Part shown: one piece after another, positions 1,445 through 19,171 of the stretch
How the letters are laid out: each line of letters opens with the position of its first letter
Numbering within the stretch: position 1 is the stretch's first letter
Origin: Bradyrhizobium sp. B124
GTDB lineage: Bacteria > Pseudomonadota > Alphaproteobacteria > Rhizobiales > Xanthobacteraceae
Length of the DNA: 64,000 bases
Direction: 5' to 3'
NCBI RefSeq assembly: GCF_038967635.1
Contig: NZ_CP152413.1
Coordinates: forward strand, 6,204,001-6,268,000
Program-made: the position numbers and the translations under genes
The notes under the pieces: generated by a model
What the model saw: only the letters and a program-made list of their open reading frames with translations
The model's database searches: none
What the model was told of the DNA's origin: nothing

Positions 1445-1454
1445 GGATGATGCC

Positions 1455-2234
1455 ATGAGCGCAGCAGACATCATCCTGAAACTCTCCAACATCGAGAGCT
1501 ATTACGGGCCGATCATGGCGATCCGCGGCATCAGCCTCGAGGTGCCGCGCGGCCGGATCGTGACGCTGCTCGGTGCCAACGGCGCCGGCAAGACCACGGT
1601 GCTGAAGACGATCTCCGGCATCCTCGATCCGCAGAAAGGGTCGATCGAATTCCTGGGCAAGCCGATCCAGCGCATGGAGGCCGACCGGATTGTGCGGCTC
1701 GGCCTCAGCCACGTGCCGGAGGGACGCGAGGTGTTTCCGTTCCTGTCGGTGCGTGAAAACCTGATGATGGGCGCCTTTCTGCGCAAGGACCGCGACGGTG
1801 TGGCGCAGGACCTCGAACGCGTCTACGGCTATTTTCCACGGCTGAAGGAGCGGCTCGGCCAGCCGGCCGGACAGCTTTCGGGCGGCGAGCAGCAGATGCT
1901 TGCGATCGGGCGGGCGCTGATGAACCGGCCGACCTTGCTGCTGCTGGACGAGCCGTCGCTTGGACTGTCGCCGATCCTGGTGAAGGAGATATTCACGATC
2001 ATCCGACGCGTCAATGAGGAGCAGGGCATGTCGATCCTGCTGGTCGAGCAGAATGCCAAGATCGCGCTGGAGACGGCGCATTACGGCTATGTGCTGGAGA
2101 TCGGCCGCGTCGTCATGAACGACACCTGCGAACGGCTGTTGAATTCGCCCGATATCCAGGAGTTCTACCTCGGCGCCAAGGAAGCGGGTGCGCGGGGCGA
2201 GCGGCGCTGGAAAAAGAAGAAGACGTGGCGCTGA
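1455..2234 (+). CDS. livF: Branched-chain-type ABC transporter ATPase (LivF family)
   Basis: A 259-residue ATPase with Walker A GANGAGKTT, a canonical signature LSGGEQQMLAIGRAL and Walker B LLLLDEPSLGL. The HVPEGREVFPFLSV segment is typical of LivF. The start ATG at 1455 sits 10 bases after the livG stop. The C-terminus carries a basic tail (RRWKKKKTWR) beyond the usual end of LivF. It is the second ATPase of the uptake system and probably cotranscribed with livM, livG and the ligase downstream, although a 158-base gap follows. Confidence 0.95.
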   Translation: MSAADIILKLSNIESYYGPIMAIRGISLEVPRGRIVTLLGANGAGKTTVLKTISGILDPQKGSIEFLGKPIQRMEADRIVRLGLSHVPEGREVFPFLSVRENLMMGAFLRKDRDGVAQDLERVYGYFPRLKERLGQPAGQLSGGEQQMLAIGRALMNRPTLLLLDEPSLGLSPILVKEIFTIIRRVNEEQGMSILLVEQNAKIALETAHYGYVLEIGRVVMNDTCERLLNSPDIQEFYLGAKEAGARGERRWKKKKTWR

Positions 2235-2392
2235 GAGGTAAGGCTGCCGCAGACGAAGGTTGGCGTCGACTAAAGTTGGCCGAGGAAGGTTTGGCGCTGA
2301 GAGCGAGTTGGAGCTAGATTTCGGGCCTGCTTCGCGAACAAGACCGGCCTTCGAGCCGGCGGGTGAGGCAAGCGGCAGAGGAGGGAGCGCGC

Positions 2393-4231
2393 ATGGCAGG
2401 ACCAGCGGTGCTGACGGTTGCCGACACGATCGCGAGGAGCTTTCTGCTCGCGGTGCAGACGCGTGGCGAGCGGCCCGCGATCCGCGAAAAGAAGTTCGGC
2501 ATCTGGCAGCCGACCAGCTGGCGCGAATGGCTGCAGATATCCAGGGACATCGCCTTCGGCCTGCATGCGACCGGCTTCCGCCCCGGCGACGTCGCCTCGA
2601 TCATCGCCAACGCGGTGCCGGAGTGGGTTTATGCCGACATGGGCATCCTGTGCGCCGGCGGCGTGTCCTCTGGCATCTATCCGACCGATTCGGCGACGCA
2701 GGTCGAATACCTGGTCAATGATTCCCGGACGCGGGTGATGTTCGTCGAGGACGAGGAGCAGCTCGACAAGGTGCTGACCTGCCGGTCGCGCTGTCCGACG
2801 CTGGAAAAAATTGTCGTGTTCGACATGGAGGGCCTCTCCGGATTCTCCGATCCGATGGTGCTGTCGCTCGCCGAATTCACGGCGCTCGGCCGCAATCATG
2901 CGCAGGGCAATGATGCCTTGTGGGATGAGATGACCGGCAGCCGCACCGCCTCCGATCTCGCGATCCTGGTCTACACCTCGGGCACCACAGGCCCGCCCAA
3001 GGGCGCGATGCATTCCAACCGCAGCGTCACGCACCAGATGCGCCACGCCAATGATCTCTACCCCTCGACCGACAGCGAGGAGCGGCTGGTGTTCCTGCCG
3101 CTCTGCCATGTCGCCGAGCGGGTCGGCGGCTACTACATCTCGCTGGCGCTGGGTTCGGTGATGAATTTTGCCGAGAGCCCGGAGACGGTGCCGGACAATC
3201 TGCGCGAGGTGCAGCCGACTGCATTCCTTGCGGTGCCCAGGATCTGGGAGAAGTTCTACTCCGGGATTACCATCGCGCTGAAGGACGCGACCCCGTTCCA
3301 GAACTGGATGTATGCCCGCGCGCTTGCGATCGGTAACCGGATGACCGAGTGCCGGCTGCAGGGCGAGACGCCGCCGCTGTCGCTGCGGCTCGCCAACCGC
3401 GCCGCCTACTGGCTGGTGTTCCGCAACATCCGCCGCATGCTCGGGCTCGACCGCTGCCGGATCGCACTCACAGGCGCGGCGCCGATCTCGCCGGATCTGA
3501 TCCGCTGGTATCTCGCGCTCGGCATCGACATGCGCGAGGTCTATGGCCAGACCGAGAATTGCGGCGTCGCGACCATGATGCCGGCGGAGCGCATCAAGCT
3601 CGGCTCGGTCGGCAAGGCCGCGCCCTGGGGCGAGGTCATGATCTGCCCGAAGGGCGAGATCCTGATCAAGGGCGACTTCCTGTTCATGGGCTATCTCAAC
3701 CAGCCGGAGAAGACCGCCGAGACGATCGACGCCAAAGGCTGGCTGCACACCGGCGACGTCGGTGCGATCGACAATGAAGGCTATGTGAAGATCACCGACC
3801 GGATGAAGGACATCATCATCACCTCCGGCGGCAAGAACATCACCCCGTCCGAGATCGAGAACCAGCTGAAATTCTCGCCTTACGTTTCCGATGCGGTCGT
3901 GATCGGCGACAAGCGGCCGTATCTCACGTGCCTGATCATGATCGATCAGGAGAACGTCGAGAAATACGCCCAGGACCAGGACATCCCCTTCACCAACTAC
4001 GCGAGCCTGTGCCGTGCCCGCGAGATCCAGGACCTGATCCAGCGCGAGGTCGAGGCGGTCAACGCCAAGTTCGCGCGCGTCGAGACCATCAAGAGATTCT
4101 ACCTGATCGAGCGCCAGCTCACGCCCGAGGACGAGGAACTGACGCCGACCATGAAGCTGAAGCGCAATTTCGTGAACAAGCGCTACGCGGCCGAGATCGA
4201 CGCCATGTATGGCGCGCGGGCGGTGGCATAG
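2393..4231 (+). CDS. AMP-forming long-chain-type acyl-CoA ligase
   Basis: A 612-residue adenylate-forming enzyme, expected to activate a carboxylic acid to its CoA thioester with ATP. The P-loop-like motif YTSGTTGPPKG (about residue 195), the GQTENCG adenine-binding motif, WLHTGDVG and ITDRMKD hinge region are all present in order, and the length matches the large FAA1-type ligases. The ATG at 2393 is preceded by a strong ribosome site GGAGGGAG at 2380-2387. It lies between livF and the periplasmic binding protein, all in the same direction, which suggests that the transported compound is a fatty or aromatic acid trapped as CoA ester on entry (inference). The substrate cannot be read from sequence. 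Confidence 0.92.
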   Translation: MAGPAVLTVADTIARSFLLAVQTRGERPAIREKKFGIWQPTSWREWLQISRDIAFGLHATGFRPGDVASIIANAVPEWVYADMGILCAGGVSSGIYPTDSATQVEYLVNDSRTRVMFVEDEEQLDKVLTCRSRCPTLEKIVVFDMEGLSGFSDPMVLSLAEFTALGRNHAQGNDALWDEMTGSRTASDLAILVYTSGTTGPPKGAMHSNRSVTHQMRHANDLYPSTDSEERLVFLPLCHVAERVGGYYISLALGSVMNFAESPETVPDNLREVQPTAFLAVPRIWEKFYSGITIALKDATPFQNWMYARALAIGNRMTECRLQGETPPLSLRLANRAAYWLVFRNIRRMLGLDRCRIALTGAAPISPDLIRWYLALGIDMREVYGQTENCGVATMMPAERIKLGSVGKAAPWGEVMICPKGEILIKGDFLFMGYLNQPEKTAETIDAKGWLHTGDVGAIDNEGYVKITDRMKDIIITSGGKNITPSEIENQLKFSPYVSDAVVIGDKRPYLTCLIMIDQENVEKYAQDQDIPFTNYASLCRAREIQDLIQREVEAVNAKFARVETIKRFYLIERQLTPEDEELTPTMKLKRNFVNKRYAAEIDAMYGARAVA

Positions 4232-4310
4232 CCAACGACGAGGAAATTGGCGAAGGAGCGAGCAGGCCCGACCCTTCGCTCAACATGGGCCATGTAAGGA
4301 GGAGACTGCA

Positions 4311-5510
4311 ATGTCGAAATCGCTGAAGGCGCTGGGCCTTGCGGTGAGCGCGCTGGCGCTGACCTGTCTGCCGGCCGCAGCCCAGACCAAGGTCACCAAT
4401 GAAGGCATCTCGCCGACCGAGATCGTGATCGGAACGCATCAGGATTTGTCCGGCCCGATCAAGGTCTGGGGCGTTCCGGTGTCCAACGGCATGAAGATGG
4501 CCGTTGAGGAAATCAACGCCAGCGGCGGCATCAACGGCCGCAAGATCAAGATGATCCTGGAGGACAACGGCTACGACCCGAAGAAGGCCGTGCTGGCCTC
4601 GCAAAAGATGGTCGAGCGCGACAAGGTCTTCGCGATGATCGGTCCGATGGGCTCGCCGACCGTGCTCGCCGCGCAGGACATCCTGTTCGATGCCGGCGTG
4701 CTGCAGCTGTTCCCGCTGACCGCCGCCGAATTCACCTTCAAGTTCGATCCCGCCAAGCCGCAGGAGCGGCTGAAGTTCAACAACCTGCTGCCCTATGTCG
4801 AGAGCACGCGCGCCGCGATCAAATACATGATGGAGTGGAAGAACTTCAAGAAGCCCTGCATCATGCACCAGGACGACGAGTACGGTAAGAACGTGCTCGA
4901 CGGCTTCACCCAGCAGCTCGGCGCGATGAAGGTGCAGCCGGCCTCGGTCACGAGCTACAAGCGCGGCGCCTCCGACTTCTCGGCGCAGGTCGCCAAGATG
5001 AAGTCCGACGGCTGCGATCTCGTCGTGCTCGGCACCGTGATCCGCGAGACCATCGGCGCGATGAACGAGGCGAAGAAGCTCGGCTGGGACGTCACCTTCC
5101 TCGGCGCCACGCCGACCAACGTGCTCGAAGTGCCGGCGCTCGGCAAGGAAGCCGTCGAAGGCCTCTACGCAGCGTCGGGCTTCGAGATTCCCTACGAGGA
5201 CACGGCCAAGGGCAAGGTGAAGGACTGGCTGGTCAACTACAAGAAGATGTTCAACAGCGAGGCCAACACGCAGGCGATCATCGGCTACAACGCGGTGATG
5301 ACCTTCGCGTTCTACGCGCAGAAGGCGGGCAAGGATCTCACCGGCCAGAAGATGCTCGACGCGCTGGAGTCAGGCGACAAGTTCCTCGACATCTTCAGCT
5401 CGCCGCCGACCAAGTTCTCCAAGACCGATCATCTCGCCAACACCATCACCCAGGTGCAGCAGGTCAAGGGCGGTCGCTGGGTGCTGGTGAAGGACAATTT
5501 GATGTTCTGA
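4311..5510 (+). CDS. Periplasmic substrate-binding protein of branched-chain-type ABC transporter (LivJ/LivK-like)
   Basis: A 399-residue periplasmic binding protein. A signal peptide is clear (residues 1-24, hydrophobic core ALGLAVSALALTCLPAAAQ, cleavage after AAA/Q). The mature protein starts with the family hallmark PTEIVIGTHQDLSGP, and continues with the type I periplasmic-binding fold pattern (NGRKIKMILEDNGYDPKKAV; MIGPMGSPT). The start ATG at 4311 follows AAGGAGGAG. It is the ligand receptor of the preceding Liv-type system. Relatives next to acyl-CoA ligases often bind aromatic or fatty acids; this is inference. Confidence 0.95.
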   Translation: MSKSLKALGLAVSALALTCLPAAAQTKVTNEGISPTEIVIGTHQDLSGPIKVWGVPVSNGMKMAVEEINASGGINGRKIKMILEDNGYDPKKAVLASQKMVERDKVFAMIGPMGSPTVLAAQDILFDAGVLQLFPLTAAEFTFKFDPAKPQERLKFNNLLPYVESTRAAIKYMMEWKNFKKPCIMHQDDEYGKNVLDGFTQQLGAMKVQPASVTSYKRGASDFSAQVAKMKSDGCDLVVLGTVIRETIGAMNEAKKLGWDVTFLGATPTNVLEVPALGKEAVEGLYAASGFEIPYEDTAKGKVKDWLVNYKKMFNSEANTQAIIGYNAVMTFAFYAQKAGKDLTGQKMLDALESGDKFLDIFSSPPTKFSKTDHLANTITQVQQVKGGRWVLVKDNLMF

Positions 5511-5535
5511 GGGTAGGCGCTCCTCTCGATTCAGT

Positions 5536-5615
5536 CGTCATTGCGAGGAGCGAAGCGACAAAGCAATCCACCTTTCCGCGGAAGGATGGATTGCTTCGCT
5601 TCGCTCGCAATGACG
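5536..5615. repeat. Palindromic intergenic repeat, family A (CGTCATTGCGAG)
   Basis: Inverted arms CGTCATTGCGAG...GCAATCCA and TGGATTGC...CTCGCAATGACG flank a short centre. The same sequence recurs at 38820-38903 and 43167-43252. It lies in the convergent gap between the binding protein and the BTLCP gene and could fold as a transcript end. Confidence 0.9.
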
Positions 5616-5636
5616 GAAACTATGTCTGGCGATCTC

Positions 5637-6389
5637 TCAGTTCACCGCCGCCGTCGGCCGCCACGCGGCCTCGATGACGAGCGGCGCATCGACATAACGG
5701 CTGACACCGTTGTGGTCGATCACGAAGGTCGGCCGAAAGCGCCTGATGTCGGCATCCTCGATCATCGCCATGCGGCGGTTGTCGAGCGTCAGCCAGTGGC
5801 CGTCGAGCCGCGCCGCGACCACGGCATGATCCTCGCCACCGAGCAGGTCATGCATGACGACGATGCGCAAATCTTCCGGCGCGACGCCGGCCTTGCCGAG
5901 CGCCACGAATTTCGCGATCGCATAGTCTTCGCAATCGCCGCTTCCTCGAGCAAACGTGGCGAGCGGCGTGGCCCAGACGTCGGGCTCGCCATAAGTCGCG
6001 AGATCGCTGCCCGGGCGGATCGCCAGATTGATCGCGCGGTTGATCTCGCCGAGACGGGCGCGGCCGGTGCGCGCGCGTCCGGCATCGACGATCGCCAGGA
6101 ATCGCAACGCCTCCGGCGACGCACACCCCGCGCGGTCGCTCTCGCAGGCTGCGAGCTGCACCAATTCGTCGGCAAGCTGGCGCTGCACGCCGAGCCATTT
6201 GTCGCGCAGGCCGCCGTCGGCAAGCAGGCTGGTCGACAGGCCGAACGGCTCGGTCGACTTTCTGAGCAGTGTCGCCGGGCCGGGCGAAAGCACCGAGGCG
6301 GCATTGAGCTCGGCAATTGGCCCGGCCAAGGCCAAGCCGAAGCCCAGCATGATGGCGCGCAGCGCAAACGAGCGAAGCGAGTTACCCAT
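5637..6389 (-). CDS. Bacterial transglutaminase-like cysteine protease (BTLCP, LapG-like), periplasmic
   Basis: A 250-residue secreted protein with an N-terminal signal sequence (hydrophobic residues 11-27). The catalytic triad of the BTLCP/LapG family is readable: Cys153 in GSGDCEDYA, His188 in GEDHAVV and Asp203 in LTLDNRRM. In Pseudomonas, LapG is a calcium-dependent periplasmic protease that releases the large adhesin LapA; in Bradyrhizobium relatives the role is less known. It is divergent from a large FecR/VCBS repeat protein that is a natural candidate substrate. The GTGTCAC leader in front of the ATG carries a GGGGGTG ribosome site. No inhibitory c-di-GMP receptor (LapD) is seen nearby. 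Confidence 0.9.
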   Translation of the reverse strand: MGNSLRSFALRAIMLGFGLALAGPIAELNAASVLSPGPATLLRKSTEPFGLSTSLLADGGLRDKWLGVQRQLADELVQLAACESDRAGCASPEALRFLAIVDAGRARTGRARLGEINRAINLAIRPGSDLATYGEPDVWATPLATFARGSGDCEDYAIAKFVALGKAGVAPEDLRIVVMHDLLGGEDHAVVAARLDGHWLTLDNRRMAMIEDADIRRFRPTFVIDHNGVSRYVDAPLVIEAAWRPTAAVN

Positions 6390-6982
6390 GTGACACCCCC
6401 TGTCCGCTCATCGACCGGTGGATACTGCACCGCGCACGCGACCGGATCGTTTCATGCCGACAGCATGGCAACGATCCCTTCGAATCGACTTAAGATGTGG
6501 GGAAACCGGGCAGGAGGCTAAAGGGCGTCTGCTCCGGGTCCCGAAAACTTTACTGGTTTGTGAAACGAACCGGCGAACCTTTTTCCACCGCAAAACGCCT
6601 CATCCTTGCCTTCTGGTTAACCCGGCCGGTCCGCGCACGGGATAGCTGCGATTTGTAAGCCAGGTCACAGCTTTAGCCGGAAAATTGGGGTCAAATGCCC
6701 TCTCGGGGCTCCGGGGAAATAAAGGCAAGTAGAGAAATGCCAGTCAATACCACGAATACGTGGCGCAGTACCCATCTTGGCTCGAATCCCATCTCATGGT
6801 ACCGTCAGATCAGTCTGAACTACACGACTCATGACAGCGTGAGCCAAGTCACACCCAGTCAAACCGCGCGATCAGAGCACCTTGCGAAAGCACAGGATGG
6901 TTTCGCGAAGCTTTATCCGATGATATGCAGGCGTAATCATCTGGATATTCTACCAATATTAACCTTCGTGCGGTGATCCGCA
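6390..6982. other. 593-base intergenic region between the protease and the repeat protein; probable divergent promoter region
   Basis: No convincing gene. The part from about 6700 to 6980 is visibly richer in A and T than the surroundings, and contains an open frame of 93 codons (6695-6976, plus strand) without a good ribosome site or recognisable product. Both neighbours are transcribed away from this region, so their promoters should lie here. I could not pick a confident promoter motif. Confidence 0.5.
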
Positions 6983-9900
6983 GTGAACTTTGTCGAGAAA
7001 TTCGACGGCTATTTGCCGAACACGGACGCTTATGCCCGTGGATCGGTGCATGTCGACAGCGTTTCCACGCACGCTCCGCCCGGCGCGATCACCGTCGACG
7101 ACGGGCAATTGCTGTTCACCGGCGACTTCAAGCGGGCCGGGCTCGATCTCGTCATCTCGAAGGACGACCGGGAACTCGTCCTGCACGACTACTTCAAGGG
7201 CGAGAAACACGCGGCCCTGGCGTCGCCTGAAGGCGCGCATCTCACCGGCGACCTCGTCAAGGCGCTCACCGGCCACACCCAATATGCCCAGGCCGGCGGC
7301 GCGGTGGAACCGGCGAAGGTCATCGGCCATGTCACCAAGCTGGCGGGCAACGCCACCGCAATCCGCAACGGCGTCTCGATGGTCCTGAACCAGGGCGACA
7401 ACGTCAACAAGGGTGACGTGGTTCAGTCCGGCAGCGACTCGACGCTCGGCATCACCTTCATCGACGGCACCGTGTTCGGTCTCGGGCCGAACGCCAAGAT
7501 GGTGCTGAACGAGATGATCTACGACCCGAACGGGTCGAGCAATTCGTCGTTGATGAGCCTCGTCTCGGGCACCATCTCGTTCGTTGCCGGCGCGACTGCC
7601 AAGCATGGCGACATGAAGGTCGATACGCCGGTCGCGACCATGGGCATCCGCGGCACCGCGGTGCTGGTCGAGATCGATTTCGACGTCCAGGGCACGGGTG
7701 GTGTGCCGCCGGCCAAATTTCAGGTGCTGGTCGAGCCCGACGGCGCCACCGGCTCCTACATCCTGTTCGACAAGACGACGCTCAATCCGATCGCAACCGT
7801 CGATCAGGCCGGCACCCAGACCATCGTCAACGGCCAGGGCAGCGTCAGCTTCGTCTCGTCGGCGCAACTGTCGACCGATGCGCAGAAGCTGATCTCCGAC
7901 GTCTTCGCGCTGAAGTTCACCGACAATTCGAATCCCAACACCAAGCTCACGACGAACTTCACGGACAGCGTCGTCCCGGTCACGATCGGCCTGAAGCTCG
8001 CGACCGGCGACGCCTTCGTGCCGATCAACTTTCTGCTGGGGTTGACCAACAATTCCGGATCGCAGGCCGCTGCCCCCAAGTCCGACCACATCGCCGGGGC
8101 GCCGCATGTCGTGACACAGAATGCGGCGTTCAGCGAACAGGCCGGGCAGACCCATAGCGGACTGCCCGACACGGTGAGCGGCCAGATCACGTGGGTGGAT
8201 GTCAACCTCGGCGACAAGCCGACTGCAACGATCAACTTCAGCTCGTTCAGCTACCACGACGCCAGCGGCAACGACGTCACCTCGTCGCTGACGGCGGCGG
8301 AACAGGCGGCCATCGCGGCCGTCGAGGTCCCGGTGCTGCTCGACCCCAATCCGCTGAACAACAACATCGGCTCGGCGACCTGGACCTACAGCCTTGCCGA
8401 CGGCGCCTTCGACTTCCTCGCCGCCGGCGAAACGCTGACGCTCACCTATATGGTGCGTGTCGATAACAACTACGCGCTGAGCAACGAGACCGCGTTCAAG
8501 ACCATCACCATCACGATCACCGGCACCAACGACACGCCGGTCGTGACGTCCTCGGCACAGGTCGGTTCGATCACCGAACTGCCATGGACGACGAATTCCG
8601 CCGTGCACGATACGGCGCATGGCACGGTGACGTTTACCGATGCGGATTTGACCGACACGCACACGGTCGCCATCACCGGCGTCGCGGCGACCGGCTTCAC
8701 TGGCGGAATTCCCAACCCGGCCACCATGCTGAGCTGGCTGTCGCTGGGCGCACTGACCGATTCGACCGACGGCATGACGGGATCGCGCTCCTGGACGTTC
8801 TCGGCCGCCGACAAGAGTTTCGATTATCTCGCCGCCGGCGAGACGCTGACGCTGATCTACACGGTCCAGATCGACGACCATCATGGTGGCGTCGTCACGG
8901 TCCCGATCACGATCACGATCGTCGGCACCGACGACAGGCCGGTGATCACCTCGCCGACCCAGGCAGCCGCCATCACCGAGGCCGAGGGCGTAACCGGTTC
9001 GGCGAATTCCGATACCGCGTTCGGCACCGTGACCTTCACCGATGCCGATCTCAGCGACACCCACAGCATCACCGTGGCCAGTGTCACCGAAACGGGCGTG
9101 ACCACCGGGCTCCCCGATCAGGCGACGATCCTGAGCTGGCTCTCGCTCGGCACGCTGAAGGACACGACCGGCGGCGTGGCCGGATCCAATGCCTGGACGT
9201 TCTCGGCCGCCGACAAGAATTTCGACTATCTGGCGGCCGGCGAGAAGCTGACGCTGACCTACCTGATCCAGGTCGACGACCACCATGGCGGCGTCGTCAC
9301 CCAGCCGGTCACGATCACCATCACCGGCACCAATGACACCCCGACATTCGCGTCGGAGCCGTCGACCACCTCGGTGCCCGAGGCGATCGGCGAGACCGGC
9401 TCGACCAAGCCGGACGTGGCTCAAGGCGTGGTGGCGTTTGCCGACGTCGATCTCAGCGACACCCATACCGTGTCCATCACCGGTGTCGCGGAATCCGGCA
9501 CGACCAGCGGCCTGCCGGAGGACCAGTCCACGGTGCTGAACTGGCTCTCGCTGGGGGCGCTGACGGATTCGACCGGCCGTGTGAACGGATCGCAGGCCTG
9601 GACCTTCTCGGCCGCGGACCAGAATTTCGACTATCTCGCCGCCGGCGAGACGCTGACGCTGACCTACACAGTCAAGATCGACGACCATCATGGCGGCGTG
9701 ATCAGCCAACCGGTGACGATCACGATCGTCGGCAGCAATGACGCACCCACCGTCACGTCGGCGCCGCAGACCGCCACCATTCCCGAGCAGCCCGACACGA
9801 CGGGTTCATCCAAGCCGGACGTCGCATCGGGCGTGGTGGGATTTGCCGATGTCGATCTCAGCGATAATCACACCGTATCCATCACCGGCGTGATCGAATC

Positions 9901-11146
9901 CGGGGCGACCGCGGGCCTGCCCGAGGACCAGTCCACGATCCTGAACTGGCTTTCGCTGGGGACGCTGACGGATTCGACCGGTCATGTGAACGGATCACAG
10001 GCCTGGACCTTCTCGGCCGCGGACCAGAATTTCGACTATCTCGCCGCAGGCGAGACGCTGACGCTGACCTACACGATCCAGATCGACGACCATCATGGCG
10101 GCGTCATCACCCAGCCCGTGACGATCACGATCAACGGCGCCAACGACGCACCCACGCTCGCCGACGTCAATGCCGGCACGCTCACCGACACCGCTGCTAA
10201 CGACACGTTCAGCCCGCTCACCGGCGCGCTGCACGGCCATGACGTTGACGACGGCGAGACGGCGACGCTGACCTATGCCGCCCTCAATTCGGACCACGTC
10301 GCGGTCAACTCCTCGATCGCGGGCCTCTACGGCTCGCTTACGGTCAACGCCGACGGCACCTACAGCTATGTTCCCGACGCCGCCGCGATCAACGCGCTGG
10401 CCAAGGGCACCTATGCCGACACGTTCACCGTCGAGACCATCGATGCCCATGGCGCGACCGGGACTGCGACGCTGACGGTCGATGTCGTCGGCGCCAACGA
10501 CGCGCCGGTGATCCATGCTGACAACATCAGCATCACCGATAATCCCAACGGGACCGAAACGATCTCCGGCTTGACGGTCACGGATGTGGATGCCGGCGCC
10601 AACGAGAACTTCACCCTGGCGGCCGCGACCAACCCCGGATCGGGCAGCAGCGTCGCGCCGCCAGCGTTGGTCGGCCATCTCCCGGATATCAACACCGCGC
10701 TCGGGTCGCCCGGCCTTGTCTACAATCCGGGCCAGACCCCGCCGGCGACCGACAAGATCGCGCTCTCCGTGACCGACGGCCACGGCGCGAGCGATACGGT
10801 CAACCTGATCTTCAACGTCCAGCAAAATCCGCCCCAGCCGGTGACGCTGACGGGCACCAGCGACAAGGACGTGTTCTTCGGATCGGGCTATCAGGACAAG
10901 TTCGTGTTTGCGCCGAACTTCAATCACGACACGATCCTGAACTTTACGCCGGGCCAGGACCAGATCGACCTGTCCACGGTCGTCTCGACAAGCACCTTCA
11001 GCAGCTGGTTCGATCAGCATGCGACGACGTCGCCGACGAATTCGGCGGATACGCTGATCACGGTCGACAGTGCAGACACGATCACGTTGCACAATGTCTC
11101 GAAGGCGAGTTTGCATCAGAGCGATTTCATCATTCATTATACCTGA
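6983..11146 (+). CDS. Large FecR-domain, VCBS-repeat surface/secreted protein with type I secretion C-terminus
   Basis: A 1387-residue protein without an N-terminal signal peptide. Order of parts: an N-terminal segment; a FecR-like domain at about residues 115-235 (ending PVATMGIRGTAVLVE); five copies of a cadherin/VCBS-type repeat at about 393-1056, each 134-137 residues with the motif FDYLAAGETLTLTY and ending TITITGTND; a classical VCBS repeat (GSLTVNADGTYSYVPD) to about 1176; another Ig-like stretch; and a C-terminal region FVFAPNFNHDTILNFTPGQD...ADTITLHNV typical of RTX/VCBS type I secretion substrates. It is therefore probably exported by a type I system. The GTG at 6983 is the first start after an in-frame TGA at 6974; its ribosome site is weak. 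It could be an adhesin or biofilm protein; the family is known but this protein's role is not. Confidence 0.9.
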   Translation: MNFVEKFDGYLPNTDAYARGSVHVDSVSTHAPPGAITVDDGQLLFTGDFKRAGLDLVISKDDRELVLHDYFKGEKHAALASPEGAHLTGDLVKALTGHTQYAQAGGAVEPAKVIGHVTKLAGNATAIRNGVSMVLNQGDNVNKGDVVQSGSDSTLGITFIDGTVFGLGPNAKMVLNEMIYDPNGSSNSSLMSLVSGTISFVAGATAKHGDMKVDTPVATMGIRGTAVLVEIDFDVQGTGGVPPAKFQVLVEPDGATGSYILFDKTTLNPIATVDQAGTQTIVNGQGSVSFVSSAQLSTDAQKLISDVFALKFTDNSNPNTKLTTNFTDSVVPVTIGLKLATGDAFVPINFLLGLTNNSGSQAAAPKSDHIAGAPHVVTQNAAFSEQAGQTHSGLPDTVSGQITWVDVNLGDKPTATINFSSFSYHDASGNDVTSSLTAAEQAAIAAVEVPVLLDPNPLNNNIGSATWTYSLADGAFDFLAAGETLTLTYMVRVDNNYALSNETAFKTITITITGTNDTPVVTSSAQVGSITELPWTTNSAVHDTAHGTVTFTDADLTDTHTVAITGVAATGFTGGIPNPATMLSWLSLGALTDSTDGMTGSRSWTFSAADKSFDYLAAGETLTLIYTVQIDDHHGGVVTVPITITIVGTDDRPVITSPTQAAAITEAEGVTGSANSDTAFGTVTFTDADLSDTHSITVASVTETGVTTGLPDQATILSWLSLGTLKDTTGGVAGSNAWTFSAADKNFDYLAAGEKLTLTYLIQVDDHHGGVVTQPVTITITGTNDTPTFASEPSTTSVPEAIGETGSTKPDVAQGVVAFADVDLSDTHTVSITGVAESGTTSGLPEDQSTVLNWLSLGALTDSTGRVNGSQAWTFSAADQNFDYLAAGETLTLTYTVKIDDHHGGVISQPVTITIVGSNDAPTVTSAPQTATIPEQPDTTGSSKPDVASGVVGFADVDLSDNHTVSITGVIESGATAGLPEDQSTILNWLSLGTLTDSTGHVNGSQAWTFSAADQNFDYLAAGETLTLTYTIQIDDHHGGVITQPVTITINGANDAPTLADVNAGTLTDTAANDTFSPLTGALHGHDVDDGETATLTYAALNSDHVAVNSSIAGLYGSLTVNADGTYSYVPDAAAINALAKGTYADTFTVETIDAHGATGTATLTVDVVGANDAPVIHADNISITDNPNGTETISGLTVTDVDAGANENFTLAAATNPGSGSSVAPPALVGHLPDINTALGSPGLVYNPGQTPPATDKIALSVTDGHGASDTVNLIFNVQQNPPQPVTLTGTSDKDVFFGSGYQDKFVFAPNFNHDTILNFTPGQDQIDLSTVVSTSTFSSWFDQHATTSPTNSADTLITVDSADTITLHNVSKASLHQSDFIIHYT
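8150..10140 (+). repeat. Five in-frame tandem repeats of about 405 bases inside the VCBS protein gene
   Basis: The codons for the AAG of the LAAGE motif begin at 8420, 8831, 9233, 9638 and 10043, giving periods of 411, 402, 405 and 405 bases, all multiples of three. The last copies are nearly the same at the DNA level, including long shared stretches around GAGGACCAGTCCACG, whereas the first copy is more diverged (FDFLAAGETLTLTYMVRVDN). Confidence 0.9.
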
Positions 11147-11240
11147 TGGGCGTCGGCCTCCTGAAAAAGGCCGGCTGGATCCTGCATTGCGCAACGTCTG
11201 CTCGATTGGAACAACTCTCCGCGCGTGATATCCAGACGGT

Positions 11241-13475
11241 ATGAGACGGCTGAAGGCGATACGAAGGTGGTTCGGACGGCGCTTCGGCTATGCGCGGCTG
11301 GCCTGCGTGGCGCTGTTGATCGGCATTGCCGCGCTGCGGATCGCGGATCCGGCTCCGATTCAGGAGCTTCGCGTCAGGACGTTCGACACATTCCAGGTGA
11401 TCGAACCCCGCCAGAAGACCGCGCGGCCCGTCACCATCGTCGATATCGACGAAAAGAGCCTCGCCGATCCCCGGCTCGGGCAATGGCCGTGGCCGCGGAC
11501 GCGGCTCGCCGACATCGTCATCAATCTCACCCGGCTCGGCGCCGTGGTGATCGCGTTCGACGCGGTGTTCTCCGAGCCCGACCGTCTCAACCCCGATATC
11601 GCGGCCGATACGTTCAGCAGCCTCGACGAGGAGATGCGCGCCAGGCTGCGGCAGCTGCCGAGCAACGACAGCATCCTGGCCGACGCCATCAAGAACTCGC
11701 GTGTGGTGCTCGGCGAGTCCGGCGGCCCCAACGTGCGCGCCGACCTCAACGAAAAGCTGCCGGTCACCGGGCTTGCGATGCTCGGCGAGGAGCCGCAGAG
11801 CTTCATGTTCCAGTTTCCGGGATTGTTGCGCAACGTTCCGGTGCTCGAGGAGGCCGCGGCCGGGCGAGGCCTGTTCACGATCAGGCCGGAACGCGACGGC
11901 ATCGTCAGGCGGGTGCCGATGATGATGGTCGCGCAGGGCATCACCATGCCGTCGCTGACCTTCGAAATGCTGCGGGTGGCGGGCGGTTCGGGCACCATCC
12001 TGATCAAGGCCGACAAGGCCGGCATCAAGAGCCTCGGTATCAAGGGCTTTGCGATCCCGACCGACCTCTATGGCCAGCTCTGGATCCACTACGCACGCCG
12101 TGACCCCTCGATCTACGTCTCGGCCGTCGACGTGCTGGACGGGCGGGTGCCGCCCGACAGGATCGCCGGCAAGCTGATCCTGATCGGCACCTCCTCGGTC
12201 GGGCTCAACGACATCAAGACCACGCCGGTGACACCGGCGATGCCCGGGGTCGAGGTTCACGCCCAGGTGCTGGAGAGCGCGCTGACCGGCGACGTGGTTT
12301 CGCAACCGAACTACGGCATCGGCATCGAGTTCTTCGCCGCGCTGATCATGGGGCTGCTGGTCATCGCCTTCGCGCCGAAGTTCGGTCCGATCACGCTGGT
12401 CGTCGTTGGCGGGATGTTCGCCTCGGTGCTGACCGGCACATCCTGGTATTTCTATTCCCAGCATCGGCTCCTGATCGATTTTACCTATCCGCTGATGTCG
12501 ACCACGGCGATCTACCTCACGCTGATCTTCTCCGCCTTCGTGCGCGAACAGCAGCAGCGCCGGCAGATCAGATCGCAATTCGTGCAGTACATGTCGCCCG
12601 CGCTGGTCGAGCAGCTGGCGCAGTCGCCGGAGCGGCTCGTGCTCGGCGGCGAAGAGCGCGAGATGACCATCATGTTCTCGGACATGCGCGGCTTCACCTC
12701 GATCTCGGAAACCTACAAGCGCGATCCGCAGGGCCTCACGGCGCTGATGAACCGTTTCCTCACGCCGCTCACCAACGCGATCCTCGCCCGCAAAGGCTAT
12801 ATCGACAAATATATGGGCGACGCCATCATGGCGTTCTGGAACGCGCCGCTCGACGACAAGCAGCACCAGCTCAACGCCTGCGACGCCGCGCTTGACATGC
12901 TGGAGCACGTCGGCGACCTCAACCGCAAGCGCGAACAGGAAGCGCAGGACGGTGGCCACGTCTATGTGCCGCTCAACATCGGCGTCGGCCTCAACACCGG
13001 CACCTGCGTGGTCGGCAATATGGGGTCTGATCTCAAGTTCAATTATTCGGTGCTCGGCGACAGCGTCAATCTGGCGGCGCGGCTGGAGGGGCAGTCCAAG
13101 GAATACGGCTTCCCGATCATCGTGGGATCGAAGACCGCGCTCGCGGTGAAGGAGAAGTTCGCGATCCTCGAACTCGACTTCATCATGGTGAAGGGCAAGA
13201 AGGAGCCCGAGGTGATCTATGCGATCGCCGGCCGCGAGGACGTGGCCGGTTCTGGCCGCTTCCAGCGGCTGCGCAACCTGACCATCGAGATGCTCGCCTG
13301 CTACCGCGGCCGCGACTGGGACGGCGCGCTCGCCGCGATAGAGCGTGGCCGCAAGACCGACGAGGCGCAGACGCTGCAATATCTCTACCGCCTCTATGAG
13401 GCGCGCATCCGCGCCTTCCAGAACGAGCCCCCGCCGGACGATTGGGACGGCGCCTTTGCGTTGACGACGAAATAG
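11241..13475 (+). CDS. CHASE2-domain membrane adenylate/guanylate cyclase
   Basis: A 744-residue membrane protein. An N-terminal span (about 19-34) is followed by an extracytoplasmic CHASE2 sensor (about 40-350, with VTIVDIDEKSL and FDAVFSEPD). Three spans follow (about 360-435), then a class III nucleotide cyclase domain with metal ligands Asp481 (MFSDMRGFTSIS) and Asp527 (DKYMGDAIMAFW), and the GDSVNLAARLEG transition-state segment. Lys523 in DKYMGD favours ATP over GTP (known of class III enzymes). It starts 94 bases after the FecR/VCBS gene, on the same strand, suggesting that a signal sensed outside, possibly linked to the surface protein, sets cAMP inside the cell (inference). The stop lies inside a 41-base tandem duplication. 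Confidence 0.93.
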   Translation: MRRLKAIRRWFGRRFGYARLACVALLIGIAALRIADPAPIQELRVRTFDTFQVIEPRQKTARPVTIVDIDEKSLADPRLGQWPWPRTRLADIVINLTRLGAVVIAFDAVFSEPDRLNPDIAADTFSSLDEEMRARLRQLPSNDSILADAIKNSRVVLGESGGPNVRADLNEKLPVTGLAMLGEEPQSFMFQFPGLLRNVPVLEEAAAGRGLFTIRPERDGIVRRVPMMMVAQGITMPSLTFEMLRVAGGSGTILIKADKAGIKSLGIKGFAIPTDLYGQLWIHYARRDPSIYVSAVDVLDGRVPPDRIAGKLILIGTSSVGLNDIKTTPVTPAMPGVEVHAQVLESALTGDVVSQPNYGIGIEFFAALIMGLLVIAFAPKFGPITLVVVGGMFASVLTGTSWYFYSQHRLLIDFTYPLMSTTAIYLTLIFSAFVREQQQRRQIRSQFVQYMSPALVEQLAQSPERLVLGGEEREMTIMFSDMRGFTSISETYKRDPQGLTALMNRFLTPLTNAILARKGYIDKYMGDAIMAFWNAPLDDKQHQLNACDAALDMLEHVGDLNRKREQEAQDGGHVYVPLNIGVGLNTGTCVVGNMGSDLKFNYSVLGDSVNLAARLEGQSKEYGFPIIVGSKTALAVKEKFAILELDFIMVKGKKEPEVIYAIAGREDVAGSGRFQRLRNLTIEMLACYRGRDWDGALAAIERGRKTDEAQTLQYLYRLYEARIRAFQNEPPPDDWDGAFALTTK

Positions 13476-13543
13476 GCGCCGCAAACGCAGTGTCGTCCCG
13501 GCTGACGACGAAATGGGCGCCACAAATCCGGTGTCGTCCCGGC
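13462..13543 (+). repeat. Tandem 41-base duplication over the cyclase stop codon
   Basis: Copy 1 (13462-13502) and copy 2 (13503-13543) both read TGACGACGAAATxGGCGCC...GTGTCGTCCCGGC with a few differences. Copy 1 contains the last codons and the TAG stop of the cyclase gene; in copy 2 the stop has become TGG. The second copy runs into a palindromic repeat. Confidence 0.85.
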
Positions 13544-13649
13544 GAAGGCCGGGACTCATATGCCGTGGCCGGCGTAGTGGGCAAGCGGCCAGACGGCTTT
13601 CTAACAACACCCATTCGTGGTTATGGGTCCCGGCCTTCGCCGGGACGAC
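13533..13649. repeat. Palindromic intergenic repeat, family B (GTCGTCCCGGC)
   Basis: Left arm GTCGTCCCGGCGAAGGCC and right arm GGCCTTCGCCGGGACGAC are exact inverses, separated by about 80 bases. Related copies occur at 28021, 42653, 51827 and 54919. It lies between convergent genes. Confidence 0.9.
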
Positions 13650-13656
13650 GAGAGAC

Positions 13657-15264
13657 CTACTCCAGACCGATCTGCGTCAGATCCTGGAACCAGTGCTGCG
13701 CCTGCACGAAGGTTTTCACCTTCGGCGACAGCGCGTGCGGATTGGTGTCGTGCACCACCCACACCAGCGCAGCATCGTCGACGATCAGCGCGTGCGCCTG
13801 CGCCAGCAGCGCATCCTGTTTCGCGCTGTCGAAGGTCTGTTTGGCCTCGTCGATCAGCGCGTCGACCTTCGGATTCTTGTAGCCGCCCCAGTTAACGCCT
13901 GTCGGCGCCACCTGGCCGGAATGGAAGAACCGCACGATGGCGTAGAGCGGATCCGAGGTGACATAGGCGATGTTGTTGGCGGTGATGCCGGCGTTCATCT
14001 CGTCGGCCGCGCCCTTGCGCCAGTGCGAATAGAGTGTCTCGAGCTCGACGACCTTGAAGTCAATATCGATGCCGATCTCCTTGAAACTCTGCTGCAGGAA
14101 TTCGTTCATCGGCAGCGACAGCATCTGCCCGGTGCCACCCTGGGCGATGATGAAGGTGGTCTTCAGCGGCTTGTCCTTTGAATAGCCGGCTTCCTCCACC
14201 AGCTTTTTGGCGGCCGCGAGGTCGTATTTCAGTTCGAAGCTCGGCTTGCCGAACCACGGGCTCGACGGGTCGACCTGGCCCTTGGCCGGCTTGGCCAGGC
14301 CGTTCATCAGGCCAACCACCGCATCGCGGTCGATCGCGAGGTTGAGTGCCTTGCGCAGGCGGATGTCGGTCCAGGGCGAACCCGGCAGCACGCTCAAGTG
14401 ATAATTCCAGACATGCGGCGTCACGTTGTCGACGATCCTCATGCCGGCGGCCTTCAGCTGCGGCACGGCGTCGGGCGCCGGTGTTTCGATCAGGTCGACC
14501 TGGCCGGCCAGCAGCGCGTTGGTGCGGGTCAGCGCCTCCGGCATCGGGATCAGGATCATCTTGTCGACCTTCGCCAGCCGCTTCTTGTCCCAATAGTCCG
14601 GGTTCTTGGTCAGCTCGGCGAGCTCGCGCGGCACCAGCTTGGTCAGCTTGAACGGGCCGGTGCCGGAGGGCTGGCTGGCGAACTTGTCCCAGTCCCTGCC
14701 GAGCTTCTCATATTGCGCGGGGCTCGAGACCAGGAACCAGAGCATCTGGTAGGGGAAAAAGGAGTCGACCGTCTTGGTGGTGATCTCGATGGTCTGGTCG
14801 TCGATCTTGGCGTAGCTCGCGACCGAGGGCAGTCGGGTCTTGACCTGCGCGCTTTGCCGCTTGTCGAATTGCGGTGCCTTGTCGTTCAGCACCTTGTCGA
14901 GATTCCAGATCACCGCGTCGGCGTTGAAGTCGCTGCCGTCGTGGAATTTCACGCCCTTGCGCAGGGTGAAGCGCCACTTGGTCTTGTCGTTGTCATCGAC
15001 CTTCCATTCGGTCGCAAGCCCGGGCACCAGTTTTCCCGGCCGGTCGGCCACGTCCATCTCCCAGGCCACCAGCGGATCGTAGATCGTGTAGGCCGTGAAC
15101 TGATAGGCGCCGGCGCCGCGATCGGGCTGGCCGGTCGTCAGCGGAATGTCGGCCATCGAAATGCCGTAGCGCACAATGGACTCTGCTCGCGCCGAGGTGG
15201 CCGGCCAGCCCGCGGTCAGGGCGAGCGCCATTGCCGCCGTCAGGATCGAATTGCGCGCGCGCAT
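13657..15264 (-). CDS. Periplasmic solute-binding protein, family 5 (peptide/nickel ABC transport)
   Basis: A 535-residue DppA/OppA-type receptor. The signal peptide (about residues 1-27, ILTAAMALALTAGWPATSARA) and family motifs (LVPGLATEWKVDD, FTLRKGVKFHDGS, FNADAVIWNLDKVL) are plain. I chose the ATG at 15264, which follows GGAG and begins directly before the signal sequence, rather than an ATG 63 bases upstream that would add a non-signal extension. It is divergent from a second binding protein of the same subfamily (15474-17126), sharing ADIPxTxGQPD near the mature N-terminus, GSPWxDIR and the C-terminal ALSPKVKTFV-like segment. No permease follows it, so it probably feeds the transporter encoded at 17325-22816. 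Confidence 0.93.
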   Translation of the reverse strand: MRARNSILTAAMALALTAGWPATSARAESIVRYGISMADIPLTTGQPDRGAGAYQFTAYTIYDPLVAWEMDVADRPGKLVPGLATEWKVDDNDKTKWRFTLRKGVKFHDGSDFNADAVIWNLDKVLNDKAPQFDKRQSAQVKTRLPSVASYAKIDDQTIEITTKTVDSFFPYQMLWFLVSSPAQYEKLGRDWDKFASQPSGTGPFKLTKLVPRELAELTKNPDYWDKKRLAKVDKMILIPMPEALTRTNALLAGQVDLIETPAPDAVPQLKAAGMRIVDNVTPHVWNYHLSVLPGSPWTDIRLRKALNLAIDRDAVVGLMNGLAKPAKGQVDPSSPWFGKPSFELKYDLAAAKKLVEEAGYSKDKPLKTTFIIAQGGTGQMLSLPMNEFLQQSFKEIGIDIDFKVVELETLYSHWRKGAADEMNAGITANNIAYVTSDPLYAIVRFFHSGQVAPTGVNWGGYKNPKVDALIDEAKQTFDSAKQDALLAQAHALIVDDAALVWVVHDTNPHALSPKVKTFVQAQHWFQDLTQIGLE

Positions 15265-15473
15265 ATGAAGGCTCCGTTGGTGGGAAGTCGGGGCCAAATC
15301 CTGCAAGCATGATGCCAGAATAGGCATCTTCGCACGGTTGGGGCGCGAGGTGGGAAGAAATGACGCGCCCAGCGGTTATTTGCTGAAGAACTATTCCTCT
15401 TGGCACAGGCATTGCATACGCTTGCCCAAGAAATAATCACTAAAACGTCACCAGACTTCGAAGGGTTGCTCAG
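15265..15473. promoter_or_regulatory. Divergent promoter region between the two binding-protein genes
   Basis: 209 bases separate two divergent starts. The right half carries a sigma-54-type promoter (listed separately). I did not find a convincing NtrC dyad or a sigma-70 promoter for the leftward gene by eye. Confidence 0.55.
15401..15416 (+). promoter_or_regulatory. Predicted sigma-54 (RpoN) promoter of the amide uptake operon
   Basis: TGGCACAGGCATTGCA matches the -24/-12 consensus TGGCACR-N4-TTGCW, with exactly 10 bases between the GG (15402-15403) and the GC (15414-15415), the invariant spacing. The predicted start point is near 15427, and the ATG of the binding-protein gene is at 15474. 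Sigma-54 promoters need an enhancer-binding activator such as NtrC, which fits a nitrogen-source transporter. Confidence 0.72.
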
Positions 15474-17126
15474 ATGCGTAACAGGAAGACCAATGCGACG
15501 GCGATCATGCTGGCGCTTGCGATCGCCAACTGTGTGCCGGCGATCGCCAGCGCCGAGACCGTGCTGCGCATTGGCATGACGGCTGCCGATATTCCGCGCA
15601 CGCTCGGGCAGCCCGACCAGGGTTTTGAGGGCAACCGTTTCACCGGGCTCACGATGTACGACGCGCTGACGATGTGGGACCTGTCGTCGTCGGACAAGGC
15701 GAGCGCGATGATCCCGGGCCTCGCCACCGAGTGGAAGGTTGACGATGCCGACAAGACCAAGTGGGTCTTCAAGCTGCGTCCCGGCGTCAGCTTTCACGAC
15801 GGCTCACCGTTCAATGCTGACGCCGTGGTCTGGAACGTCGACAAGGTGCTGAAGCAGGACGCGCCGCAATACGATGCGAGCCAGGTCGGCGTTACCGCCT
15901 CGCGCATGCCGACCTTGGTCTCCGCGCGCAAGATCGACGACATGACGGTGGAGCTGACCACCAAGGAGCCGGACAGCTTCCTGCCGATCAACCTCACCAA
16001 TATGTTCATGGCGAGCCCGGCCAAGTGGCAACAATTCTACGACAAGGCCGAAGGTGCCGACGCCAAGGCGAAGTCGCAGGCCGCATGGGCCGCGTTCGCC
16101 AAGGACGCTTCGGGCACCGGCCCCTGGAAGATGTCGAGCTTCACCCCGCGCGAGCGGCTTGAGCTCGTGAAGAACGAGAACTACTGGGACAAGGCCCGCG
16201 TGCCGAAGACCGACAAGATGGTGCTGTTGCCGATGCCCGAGGCCAACGCGCGCACTGCGGCGCTGCTGTCGGGGCAGGTGAACTGGATCGAGGCGCCGGC
16301 GCCCGACGCGCTGCCCGAAATCAAGCAGCGTGGCTTCAATCTCTATTCCAATGAGGAGCCGCATGTCTGGCCGTGGCAGTTCTCCCGCGTCGAGGGCTCG
16401 CCGTGGAATGACATCCGCGTCCGCAAGGCCGCCAATCTCTGTGTTGATCGCGAAGGGCTGCGTGACGGCCTGCTCGCGGGGCTGATGGTGCCGGCCACCG
16501 GCACGTTCGAGCCCGGCCATCCCTGGCGCGGCAACCCGACCTTCCAGATCAAATACGACAAGCCGGCCGCGCAGAAGCTGATGCAGGAGGCCGGCTTCGG
16601 TCCGAACAAGAAGCTGACGGTCAAGATCCAGACCTCGGCGTCGGGTTCGGGCCAGATGCTGCCGCTGCCGATGAACGAGTATCTGCAACAGGCTCTGGCC
16701 GAGTGCTACTTCGATGTGCAGCTCGACGTCATTGAGTGGAATACGCTGTTCACCAACTGGCGGCGCGGCGCCAAGGATCCGTCGGCCAACGGATCGAACG
16801 CGACCAACGTCACCTATGCGGCGATGGATCCGTTCTTCGCGCTGGTGCGCTTCCTGCAATCGGGCATGGCGCCGCCGGTCTCGAACAATTGGGGTTTCAT
16901 CAACAATCCGAAGTTCGACGAACTGGTGAAGAAGGCCCGCCAGACCTTCGAACCGGCGGCGCGCGATGCTGCGCTCGCCGAACTGCACGCCGCCTCGGTC
17001 GATGATGCGGCGTTCCTGTACGTCGCTCACGACGTTGCGCCGCGTGCGATGAGCCCGAAGGTCAAGGGCTTTGTGCAGCCGAAGAGCTGGTTCGTCGACT
17101 TCTCGCCGGTCTCGGTTGTGCCGTGA
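15474..17126 (+). CDS. Periplasmic solute-binding protein, family 5, first gene of the amide uptake cluster
   Basis: A 550-residue receptor with a signal peptide (about 1-27, cleavage near ASAETV) and family 5 motifs (MIPGLATEWKVDD, FKLRPGVSFHDGS, FNADAVVWNVDKVL). It is clearly a paralogue of the divergent protein at 13657-15264. It reads toward the permease genes, from which it is separated by a family F repeat. A sigma-54 promoter lies 58 bases upstream of the ATG. Family members bind oligopeptides, nickel complexes, glutathione or opine-like compounds; the ligand here is unknown, but the amidase in the same cluster suggests an amide or peptide-like molecule (inference). Confidence 0.94.
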   Translation: MRNRKTNATAIMLALAIANCVPAIASAETVLRIGMTAADIPRTLGQPDQGFEGNRFTGLTMYDALTMWDLSSSDKASAMIPGLATEWKVDDADKTKWVFKLRPGVSFHDGSPFNADAVVWNVDKVLKQDAPQYDASQVGVTASRMPTLVSARKIDDMTVELTTKEPDSFLPINLTNMFMASPAKWQQFYDKAEGADAKAKSQAAWAAFAKDASGTGPWKMSSFTPRERLELVKNENYWDKARVPKTDKMVLLPMPEANARTAALLSGQVNWIEAPAPDALPEIKQRGFNLYSNEEPHVWPWQFSRVEGSPWNDIRVRKAANLCVDREGLRDGLLAGLMVPATGTFEPGHPWRGNPTFQIKYDKPAAQKLMQEAGFGPNKKLTVKIQTSASGSGQMLPLPMNEYLQQALAECYFDVQLDVIEWNTLFTNWRRGAKDPSANGSNATNVTYAAMDPFFALVRFLQSGMAPPVSNNWGFINNPKFDELVKKARQTFEPAARDAALAELHAASVDDAAFLYVAHDVAPRAMSPKVKGFVQPKSWFVDFSPVSVVP

Positions 17127-17148
17127 GATAACCCGCGGCGCTCTTGGG

Positions 17149-17310
17149 TACCCTCTCCCCTTGTGGGAGAGGGTGGCTTCGCGAGAGCAAAGCCGAGTGA
17201 GGGGTTGTCTCCGCGGGCACTCCTCGCTGAAATGAAATGACTGTATCCGCGGATAGAACCCCTCATCCGGCGCGCTCTGCGCGCCACCTTCTCCCACAAG
17301 GGGAGAAGGA
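17149..17310. repeat. Palindromic intergenic repeat, family F (CCCTCTCCCCTTGTGGGAG)
   Basis: Left arm CCCTCTCCCCTTGTGGGAGA and right arm TTCTCCCACAAGGGGAGAAG face each other, with internal arms GAGTGAGGGGTT and AACCCCTCAT. It fills the gap between the binding protein and the first permease and may process or attenuate the transcript, giving more binding protein than permease (inference). Relatives are at 37831 and 50088. Confidence 0.85.
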
Positions 17311-17324
17311 AGAAAGAACCCAAC

Positions 17325-18278: not shown

Positions 18279-18280
18279 CC

Positions 18281-19168: not shown

Positions 19169-19171
19169 GGC

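Follow-up and report, generated by a model that had tools for sequence, protein, structure and literature searches.

Gene organization of the locus

We analyzed a 64,000-nucleotide stretch of the Bradyrhizobium sp. B124 genome (contig NZ_CP152413.1, positions 6,204,001 to 6,268,000 of the forward strand; hereafter, the window), in which a LapG-type cysteine protease (P0001) is encoded divergently from a giant FecR-domain repeat protein (P0002; hereafter, the giant), which is followed on the same strand by a CHASE2-domain adenylate cyclase (P0003). The open reading frames (ORFs) lie where an initial annotation, made from the sequence alone, had placed them: protease and giant are divergent, and 94 bases (11147–11240) separate the giant from the cyclase gene. 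The features are listed below in window coordinates; genomes (G) and other loci (L) are cited by our own handles.

5637–6389, minus strand: BTLCP / Peptidase C93 (LapG-fold) cysteine protease, 250 amino acids; triad Cys153/His188/Asp203; signal-peptide-like start (by eye)
6390–6982: divergent intergenic region, 593 bases (counterparts in 72 genomes, 464–698 bases)
6654–6669: CRP-type palindrome TGTAAGCCAGGTCACA (TGTNA-N6-TNACA), candidate cyclic AMP (cAMP)-receptor operator for both divergent genes
6983–11146, plus strand: FecR / VCBS-cadherin repeat giant, 1387 amino acids; no N-terminal signal peptide visible (by eye)
7070–7297, plus strand: conserved N-terminal domain of the giant ahead of FecR, residues ~30–105 (from the alignment)
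7319–7534, plus strand: segment of the giant resembling Marinomonas antifreeze protein chain 5ix9, residues ~113–184 (profile E 6.3e-6)
7415–7672, plus strand: FecR domain of the giant, residues 145–230; TPVATMGIRGT in 70 of 72 relatives
8150–10528, plus strand: VCBS / cadherin-like repeats of the giant, residues ~390–1182
10853–11137, plus strand: serralysin-like C-terminal region of the giant, residues 1291–1385 (weak Peptidase_M10_C match)
11241–13475, plus strand: CHASE2–class III adenylate cyclase, 744 amino acids
11322–12356, plus strand: CHASE2 domain of the cyclase, expected to be periplasmic, residues 28–372
12657–13223, plus strand: catalytic domain of the cyclase, residues 473–661

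The initial annotation had described a LapG-like protease with a visible Cys153/His188/Asp203 triad, a FecR and VCBS-repeat protein with a type I secretion C-terminus, and a CHASE2-linked adenylate cyclase, and profile searches bore out this description, if only weakly at the C-terminus of the giant. The protease matched Pfam Peptidase_C93 above the cut-off (E 2e-16; 60.6 bits versus 27) and has the fold of LapG, and its triad is invariant across 19 aligned BTLCPs; against the NCBIfam equivalog CystProtLapG it stayed far below the cut-off (62.7 versus 320 bits). The giant gave matches to FecR (E 6.5e-8) and, over six stretches, to TIGR01965 VCBS (E 1.1e-49), and its C-terminus gave only a weak, below-cut-off match to Peptidase_M10_C (17.7 bits versus 20.7). 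Matches to CHASE2 (E 8.7e-56) and Guanylate_cyc (E 3.1e-21) define the cyclase, whose residues D481, K523, D527, D607 and R614 are conserved in 79 of 80 relatives; in the last one, the alignment stops short of them. We take these to be the class III signature positions, namely, the two metal-binding Asp, the Lys/Asp substrate pair and the transition-state Arg, and the product is probably cAMP.

Conservation within Bradyrhizobium

Across 80 genomes of the genus, the best protease and cyclase matches shared a contig in 73; in the other seven, all of them assemblies of 170–720 contigs, they were on separate contigs. Pairing was read by eye, with a script run over the 73 loci as a check: protease and cyclase were divergent in all 73, and a FecR giant of 1285–6074 amino acids lay between them, on the cyclase strand, in 72. 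Conservation of this neighborhood, on which the initial annotation had staked its proposal, also extends to a second genus (G313, described below). At the one exceptional locus, in G006, all four flanking genes are present and the giant alone is gone; a FecR giant elsewhere in that genome has another BTLCP adjoining it.

That second cluster of G006 (L047:3276–11998), which sits away from the cyclase locus, comprises the FecR giant (72% identity in the FecR region), a diverged BTLCP of 212 amino acids lying between FecR-like proteins, a FecR protein recognized by Pfam, and an 829-residue protein that is FecR-like by BLAST only.

Loci were also collected by the N-terminus of the giant. Among the best 80 of 524 such loci, which overlap partly with the 80 genus genomes, a BTLCP was found in 76, divergently upstream in 75, and the cyclase was within the stretch in 67. 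The four loci without a BTLCP were L167, which ends at a contig edge, and L192, L216 and L224, where the giant stands alone, both BTLCP and cyclase being missing from the stretch. The right neighbor of the three genes (556 amino acids) was retained in 37 of the 48 genus stretches with room for it and the left neighbor in 11 of 22, so that the three genes are kept more tightly than their flanks, in a region that is itself old.

FecR proteins, CHASE2 cyclases and type I secretion genes beyond the genus

In G313, which belongs to another genus of the same family, the gene row is protease, FecR giant, ABC, HlyD and cyclase, and none of the four flanking genes was found in 17.5 kb. When 249 genomes of the order were searched with a profile of the N-terminus of the giant, 22 gave matches. 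Seven of these belong to the genus; 12 lie outside it and have long FecR frames, from 743 amino acids (a frame truncated at a contig end) up to 6904; and the remaining three have nothing longer than short FecR frames. The cyclase adjoins the giant or shares its gene row at 6 of these 12 loci (G313, G114, G085, G157, G139 and G225); among the remaining giant genomes, it lies 83 kb off on the same contig in G108 and on other contigs in five.

The association of FecR with CHASE2 was counted in the 61 genomes of the order for which all FecR matches were listed, taking cyclase matches of E below 1e-90. A FecR gene was present within 5 kb, or as a neighboring giant, at 19 of 35 cyclase matches (17 of 33 outside the genus); the chance expectation of a FecR neighbor at 5 kb for all 35 cyclases was 0.26, and the giant rule (gap < 3 × ORF length + 1500), more generous than the 5 kb of the expectation, adds one case, G085. 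These FecR partners include small proteins (~210–430 amino acids), proteins of 830–946 amino acids, a 1252-residue FecR-TPR protein and giants linked to type I secretion system (T1SS) genes, and the constant element across them is FecR next to CHASE2. The FecR-TPR protein (L266:2897–7501) ends in Phe, has the CHASE2 gene directly after it, and is possibly similar to NsrA, a Sinorhizobium meliloti protein discussed below. By gene context, a link between the FecR protein and the CHASE2 cyclase is well supported.

At L125:4868–14163, a CHASE2 cyclase starts 75 bases after a Gly-rich protein of 2336 amino acids that is autotransporter-like by eye and would be a further surface protein adjoining such a cyclase. 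A 3314-residue fusion frame around the cyclase of G295 was rejected: upstream, in repeat DNA, the frame stays open only by chance, and the neighbor is a separate Gly-rich protein, autotransporter-like by eye.

T1SS genes adjoin 12 of the 13 FecR giants examined outside the genus, with a TolC-like gene as the only one found in G245, and from this context of its relatives the window giant is predicted to be a type I secretion substrate. BTLCP matches below E 1e-70 were limited to the Bradyrhizobium family in the sample of 249 genomes. By this distribution, the wider unit consists of FecR giant, T1SS and CHASE2 cyclase, the LapG-type protease being characteristic of the Bradyrhizobium family; since FecR giants and cyclases occur together in families with no BTLCP match at E ≤ 1e-15, the older partner of the cyclase is the FecR protein.

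N-terminal region of the giant

For the conserved N-terminal domain, four of five relatives in other families gave weak, below-cut-off BapA-prefix matches. Profile positions 113–184 matched chain 5ix9, which is labelled an antifreeze protein (E 6.3e-6) and is presumably the cell-surface anchoring part of a Marinomonas protein. The retention_LapA profile (NF033682) matched the window giant below its cut-off (23.6 bits versus 50) and all 32 relatives at E ≤ 0.01 (best 2e-6), again below it. Other-family giants scored 25.5–38.2 bits, somewhat above the 18.4–28.1 bits of four small FecR controls (a fifth had no match), and this profile was dropped as a means of recognizing a retention module for its poor discrimination. 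Since the small controls match too, its matches reflect kinship of FecR-like folds rather than retention. After the FecR domain, most other-family giants have a long linker rich in Gly, Glu, Pro and Asp, and the Bradyrhizobium giants a conserved segment and then a shorter linker, a layout that would fit a folded periplasmic end tethered to an outside fiber. No outer membrane barrel family of the NsrA type was among the domain matches of the giant.

A CRP-type site in the divergent promoter region

The pattern TGTNA-N6-TNACA was found in 55 of 72 protease–giant intergenic regions, ~320–340 bases before the start of the giant, and 100 dinucleotide shuffles gave a mean of 0.23 and a maximum of 2; because this form was picked after viewing the aligned sites, and so is partly fitted to the data, and because the genomes are related, the comparison is not a probability. 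In the set found by the N-terminus, 46 of 70 loci with a full upstream stretch had the site. Conservation was 1.91 bits per column in the half-sites (partly inflated because the sites were selected by pattern), 1.05 in the spacer, 0.63 in the left flank and 1.15 in the right flank, which is no less conserved than the spacer. A relaxed TGT[TG]-N8-[AC]ACA pattern matched 42 of the 72 regions, and strict CRP, strict palindromic Clr and FNR patterns matched none of them. Upstream of a FecR giant of another family (L274:5616–5832) there is a perfect CRP-type palindrome, TGTGATCTAGATCACA. The window site has, by eye, one mismatch to the Clr core consensus GTNNC-N4-GNNAC, as given in the part of PMC10127613 available to us. 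The genome contains 31 matches to the Crp-type helix-turn-helix; a rough motif scan of 30 flagged three with both motifs, of which L283 alone looks by eye like a CRP-type regulator. A cAMP receptor may bind at 6654–6669.

Paralogous proteases and comparison with Lap systems

Twelve hand-picked loci with paralogous BTLCPs were inspected. At six (L038, L039, L041, L045, L050 and L051), the BTLCPs, 46–50% identical, are in line with TolC-ABC-HlyD genes, and an ORF of >2200 amino acids lies alongside; the T1SS operon of L038 was confirmed by Pfam, and its giant is a DUF5801/RTX protein. In several Bradyrhizobium genomes, this combination forms a LapG-like secretion locus distinct from the window locus. 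At L043, a BTLCP is followed by a small FecR protein; L047, described above, has its BTLCP between FecR-like proteins; and L040, L042, L044 and L046 have neither a T1SS operon nor a FecR protein.

In the LapG-LapA-LapD system of Pseudomonas, cleavage occurs at a dialanine xAAG motif just after the retention module. The window locus has in common with this system a LapG-fold protease with a Cys-His-Asp triad and a giant repeat protein of the type I secretion kind, and with RTX adhesins bearing an N-terminal retention module it shares the segment in the FecR region that matches 5ix9 and, below the cut-off, retention_LapA. It differs from the Pseudomonas system in the low equivalog score, in having no convincing counterpart of its c-di-GMP receptor LapD and no conserved xAAG, and in the added CHASE2 cyclase. 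A LAAGE motif is present in the first repeat of the giant in 55 of 72 genomes, and recurs further on in the window protein. The term 'Lap-like', used in the initial annotation, suits the protease fold and the secretion route; neither the cleavage site nor the below-cut-off retention profile bears it out. The statement in that annotation that no LapD-like gene is visible holds for the whole genome at the Pfam level, with one reservation: LapD_MoxY_N has a single match, just at its threshold (25.0 bits; cut-off, 25), in a protein that is by eye a sensor kinase. No support was found for the suggestion that the cyclase stands in for LapD, as FecR giants and cyclases occur together in families with no BTLCP match at E ≤ 1e-15. 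That the three genes belong together drew support from their order in two genera, the recurrence of FecR with CHASE2, the BTLCPs beside T1SS genes and the CRP-type site.

A proposed surface-protein and second-messenger module

We propose, at a probability that we estimate at roughly 0.48, that the locus works as follows. The giant would be exported with its C-terminus leading, by a type I channel whose genes lie elsewhere in the genome, its N-terminal and FecR domains being held in the periplasm and its repeats outside. The FecR domain would contact the periplasmic CHASE2 domain of the adjacent cyclase and alter cAMP output, and the divergent LapG-type protease would cut the giant near its N-terminus, by which the fiber would be freed and the signal ended or changed. 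Finally, cAMP and a CRP/Clr-like receptor may feed back on the divergent promoter at 6654–6669. Periplasmic retention, the contact between FecR and CHASE2, and cleavage of the giant are steps that we infer; the giant as substrate of the protease is plausible from the gene arrangement, and the cAMP-coupled surface-protein module raised in the initial annotation serves well as a working hypothesis. A bolder version, tentative and on balance unlikely, would have the type I secreted giant as a trans-envelope receptor whose FecR domain, sitting in the periplasm where the retention plug of Lap-type adhesins is located, switches the CHASE2 cyclase when the fiber is bound or pulled, with the protease resetting the system by severing the fiber, and cAMP and a CRP-type factor rewriting the output of both divergent genes.

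Several results weigh against this proposal. The flanks of the locus being partly syntenic, the genus-wide order is not independent evidence, and the stronger support comes from outside that order. No FecR neighbor was found in the assembly for 16 of 33 non-genus cyclases. Of the 11 genomes from other families that carry a FecR giant, none gave a BTLCP match at E ≤ 1e-15, so the pair of FecR giant and cyclase does not require the protease. [TPAR]AAG occurs in the linker of the giant in just 3 of 72 relatives, and the xAAG site is not conserved; the retention profile stayed below the cut-off in every scanned protein and matched four of five small FecR controls; and a structure model of the N-terminus of the giant (pLDDT 45.7) was unusable for a fold search. 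T1SS genes were absent beside all 8 genus loci tested (of 73), the type I secretion context being shown for relatives only, and none were found beside the stand-alone Bradyrhizobium giants L216 and L224 or beside L192, the thirteenth non-genus giant, from a Beijerinckiaceae metagenome-assembled genome. The CRP-type site is missing in 17 of the 72 regions, as well as in G313, G006, L216 and L224, and is present in just one of seven other-family loci (L274). In addition, the S. meliloti FecR-domain protein SMc02177 was dispensable for signal perception, according to the part of PMC5498481 available.

Among alternative explanations, the one that survives best, although we consider it unlikely, is that the functional pair consists of the FecR giant and the cyclase alone, the protease being a neighbor that general synteny has preserved and that works on a different type I secreted protein. 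The pairs without a BTLCP match in other families, the partial synteny of the flanking genes and the location of paralogous BTLCPs in other T1SS operons are consistent with this explanation, but G313 retains the protease despite different flanks, a BTLCP adjoins a FecR protein at each of the unlinked loci L047 and L043, and the protease shares its divergent promoter region and operator-like site with the giant. An inside-out flow, in which the cue for the CHASE2 cyclase is something other than the giant, and cAMP and its receptor only set the expression of protease and giant, is improbable. It would account for the conservation of the CRP-type site in most divergent promoters; however, CHASE2 cyclases are in some cases paired with small FecR proteins (~210–430 amino acids) that are not adhesins, so that adhesin expression alone does not explain the pairing, and in S. 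meliloti the receptor NsrA, located in the outer membrane, precedes CHASE2 cyclases in the pathway, as far as the available part of PMC7529298 states. That protease and adhesin form a plain Lap-type system in biofilm release, with the cyclase unrelated, is the least probable explanation, since the LapG fold and type I secretion context that speak for it are set against the want of a convincing LapD and against an adjacency of FecR and CHASE2 cyclase that recurs outside the genus whether the FecR protein is small, mid-sized or giant.

Neighboring features

The ORF directly after the cyclase (window 13513–14181) is probably not a gene; its translation contains a WVPAFAGTT-type signature, which we take to be that of dispersed repeats. 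Two divergent genes, ~49% identical, lie 3' of the locus (window 13657–17126), one encoding a family 5 solute-binding protein; the nearer is the right neighbor retained in 37 of 48 genus stretches. An Rfam scan of window positions 1–20000 gave no match reaching the gathering threshold.

Relation to known systems and implications

The papers cited here were available in part, and the comparisons are limited to those parts. Most CHASE2 cyclases of Campylobacterota are clustered with a FecR-domain outer membrane protein, and the cluster also includes phosphodiesterase and TPR genes (PMC9239204). In these clusters as in the window, the gene for a FecR-domain protein adjoins that of a CHASE2 class III cyclase; in the window, FecR is near the N-terminus of a giant of the T1SS type, and a LapG-type protease is added. 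In S. meliloti, NsrA works with the CHASE2 cyclases CyaK, CyaD1 and CyaD2, and the CRP-family cAMP receptor Clr acts downstream (PMC7529298, PMC13001267, PMC5498481); the proposed module resembles this pathway both in a surface protein acting through CHASE2 cyclases and in such a receptor. NsrA is described as a β-barrel outer membrane protein, whereas the window giant has VCBS/cadherin repeats instead, and neither a FecR domain on NsrA nor a LapG-type protease in its pathway was found in the literature searched. The Burkholderia BiofilmReg operon likewise encodes a FecR-domain protein beside a CHASE2 signal transducer, with a LysM-FecR protein and a histidine kinase in place of adhesin and cyclase (PMC5192318). 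The same searches found nothing joining FecR, adenylate cyclase and type I secretion; CHASE2, adenylate cyclase and adhesin; retention module, LapG and FecR; or BTLCP, adhesin and alphaproteobacteria.

The signals of CHASE2 domains were not known as of 2016 (PMC5192318), and the genus-wide set of FecR giants and CHASE2 cyclases offers a direct genetic test of CHASE2 sensing. If the proposal is true, adhesion of root-associated bacteria would be tied to cAMP signaling, by a route other than that of cyclic di-GMP and LapD.

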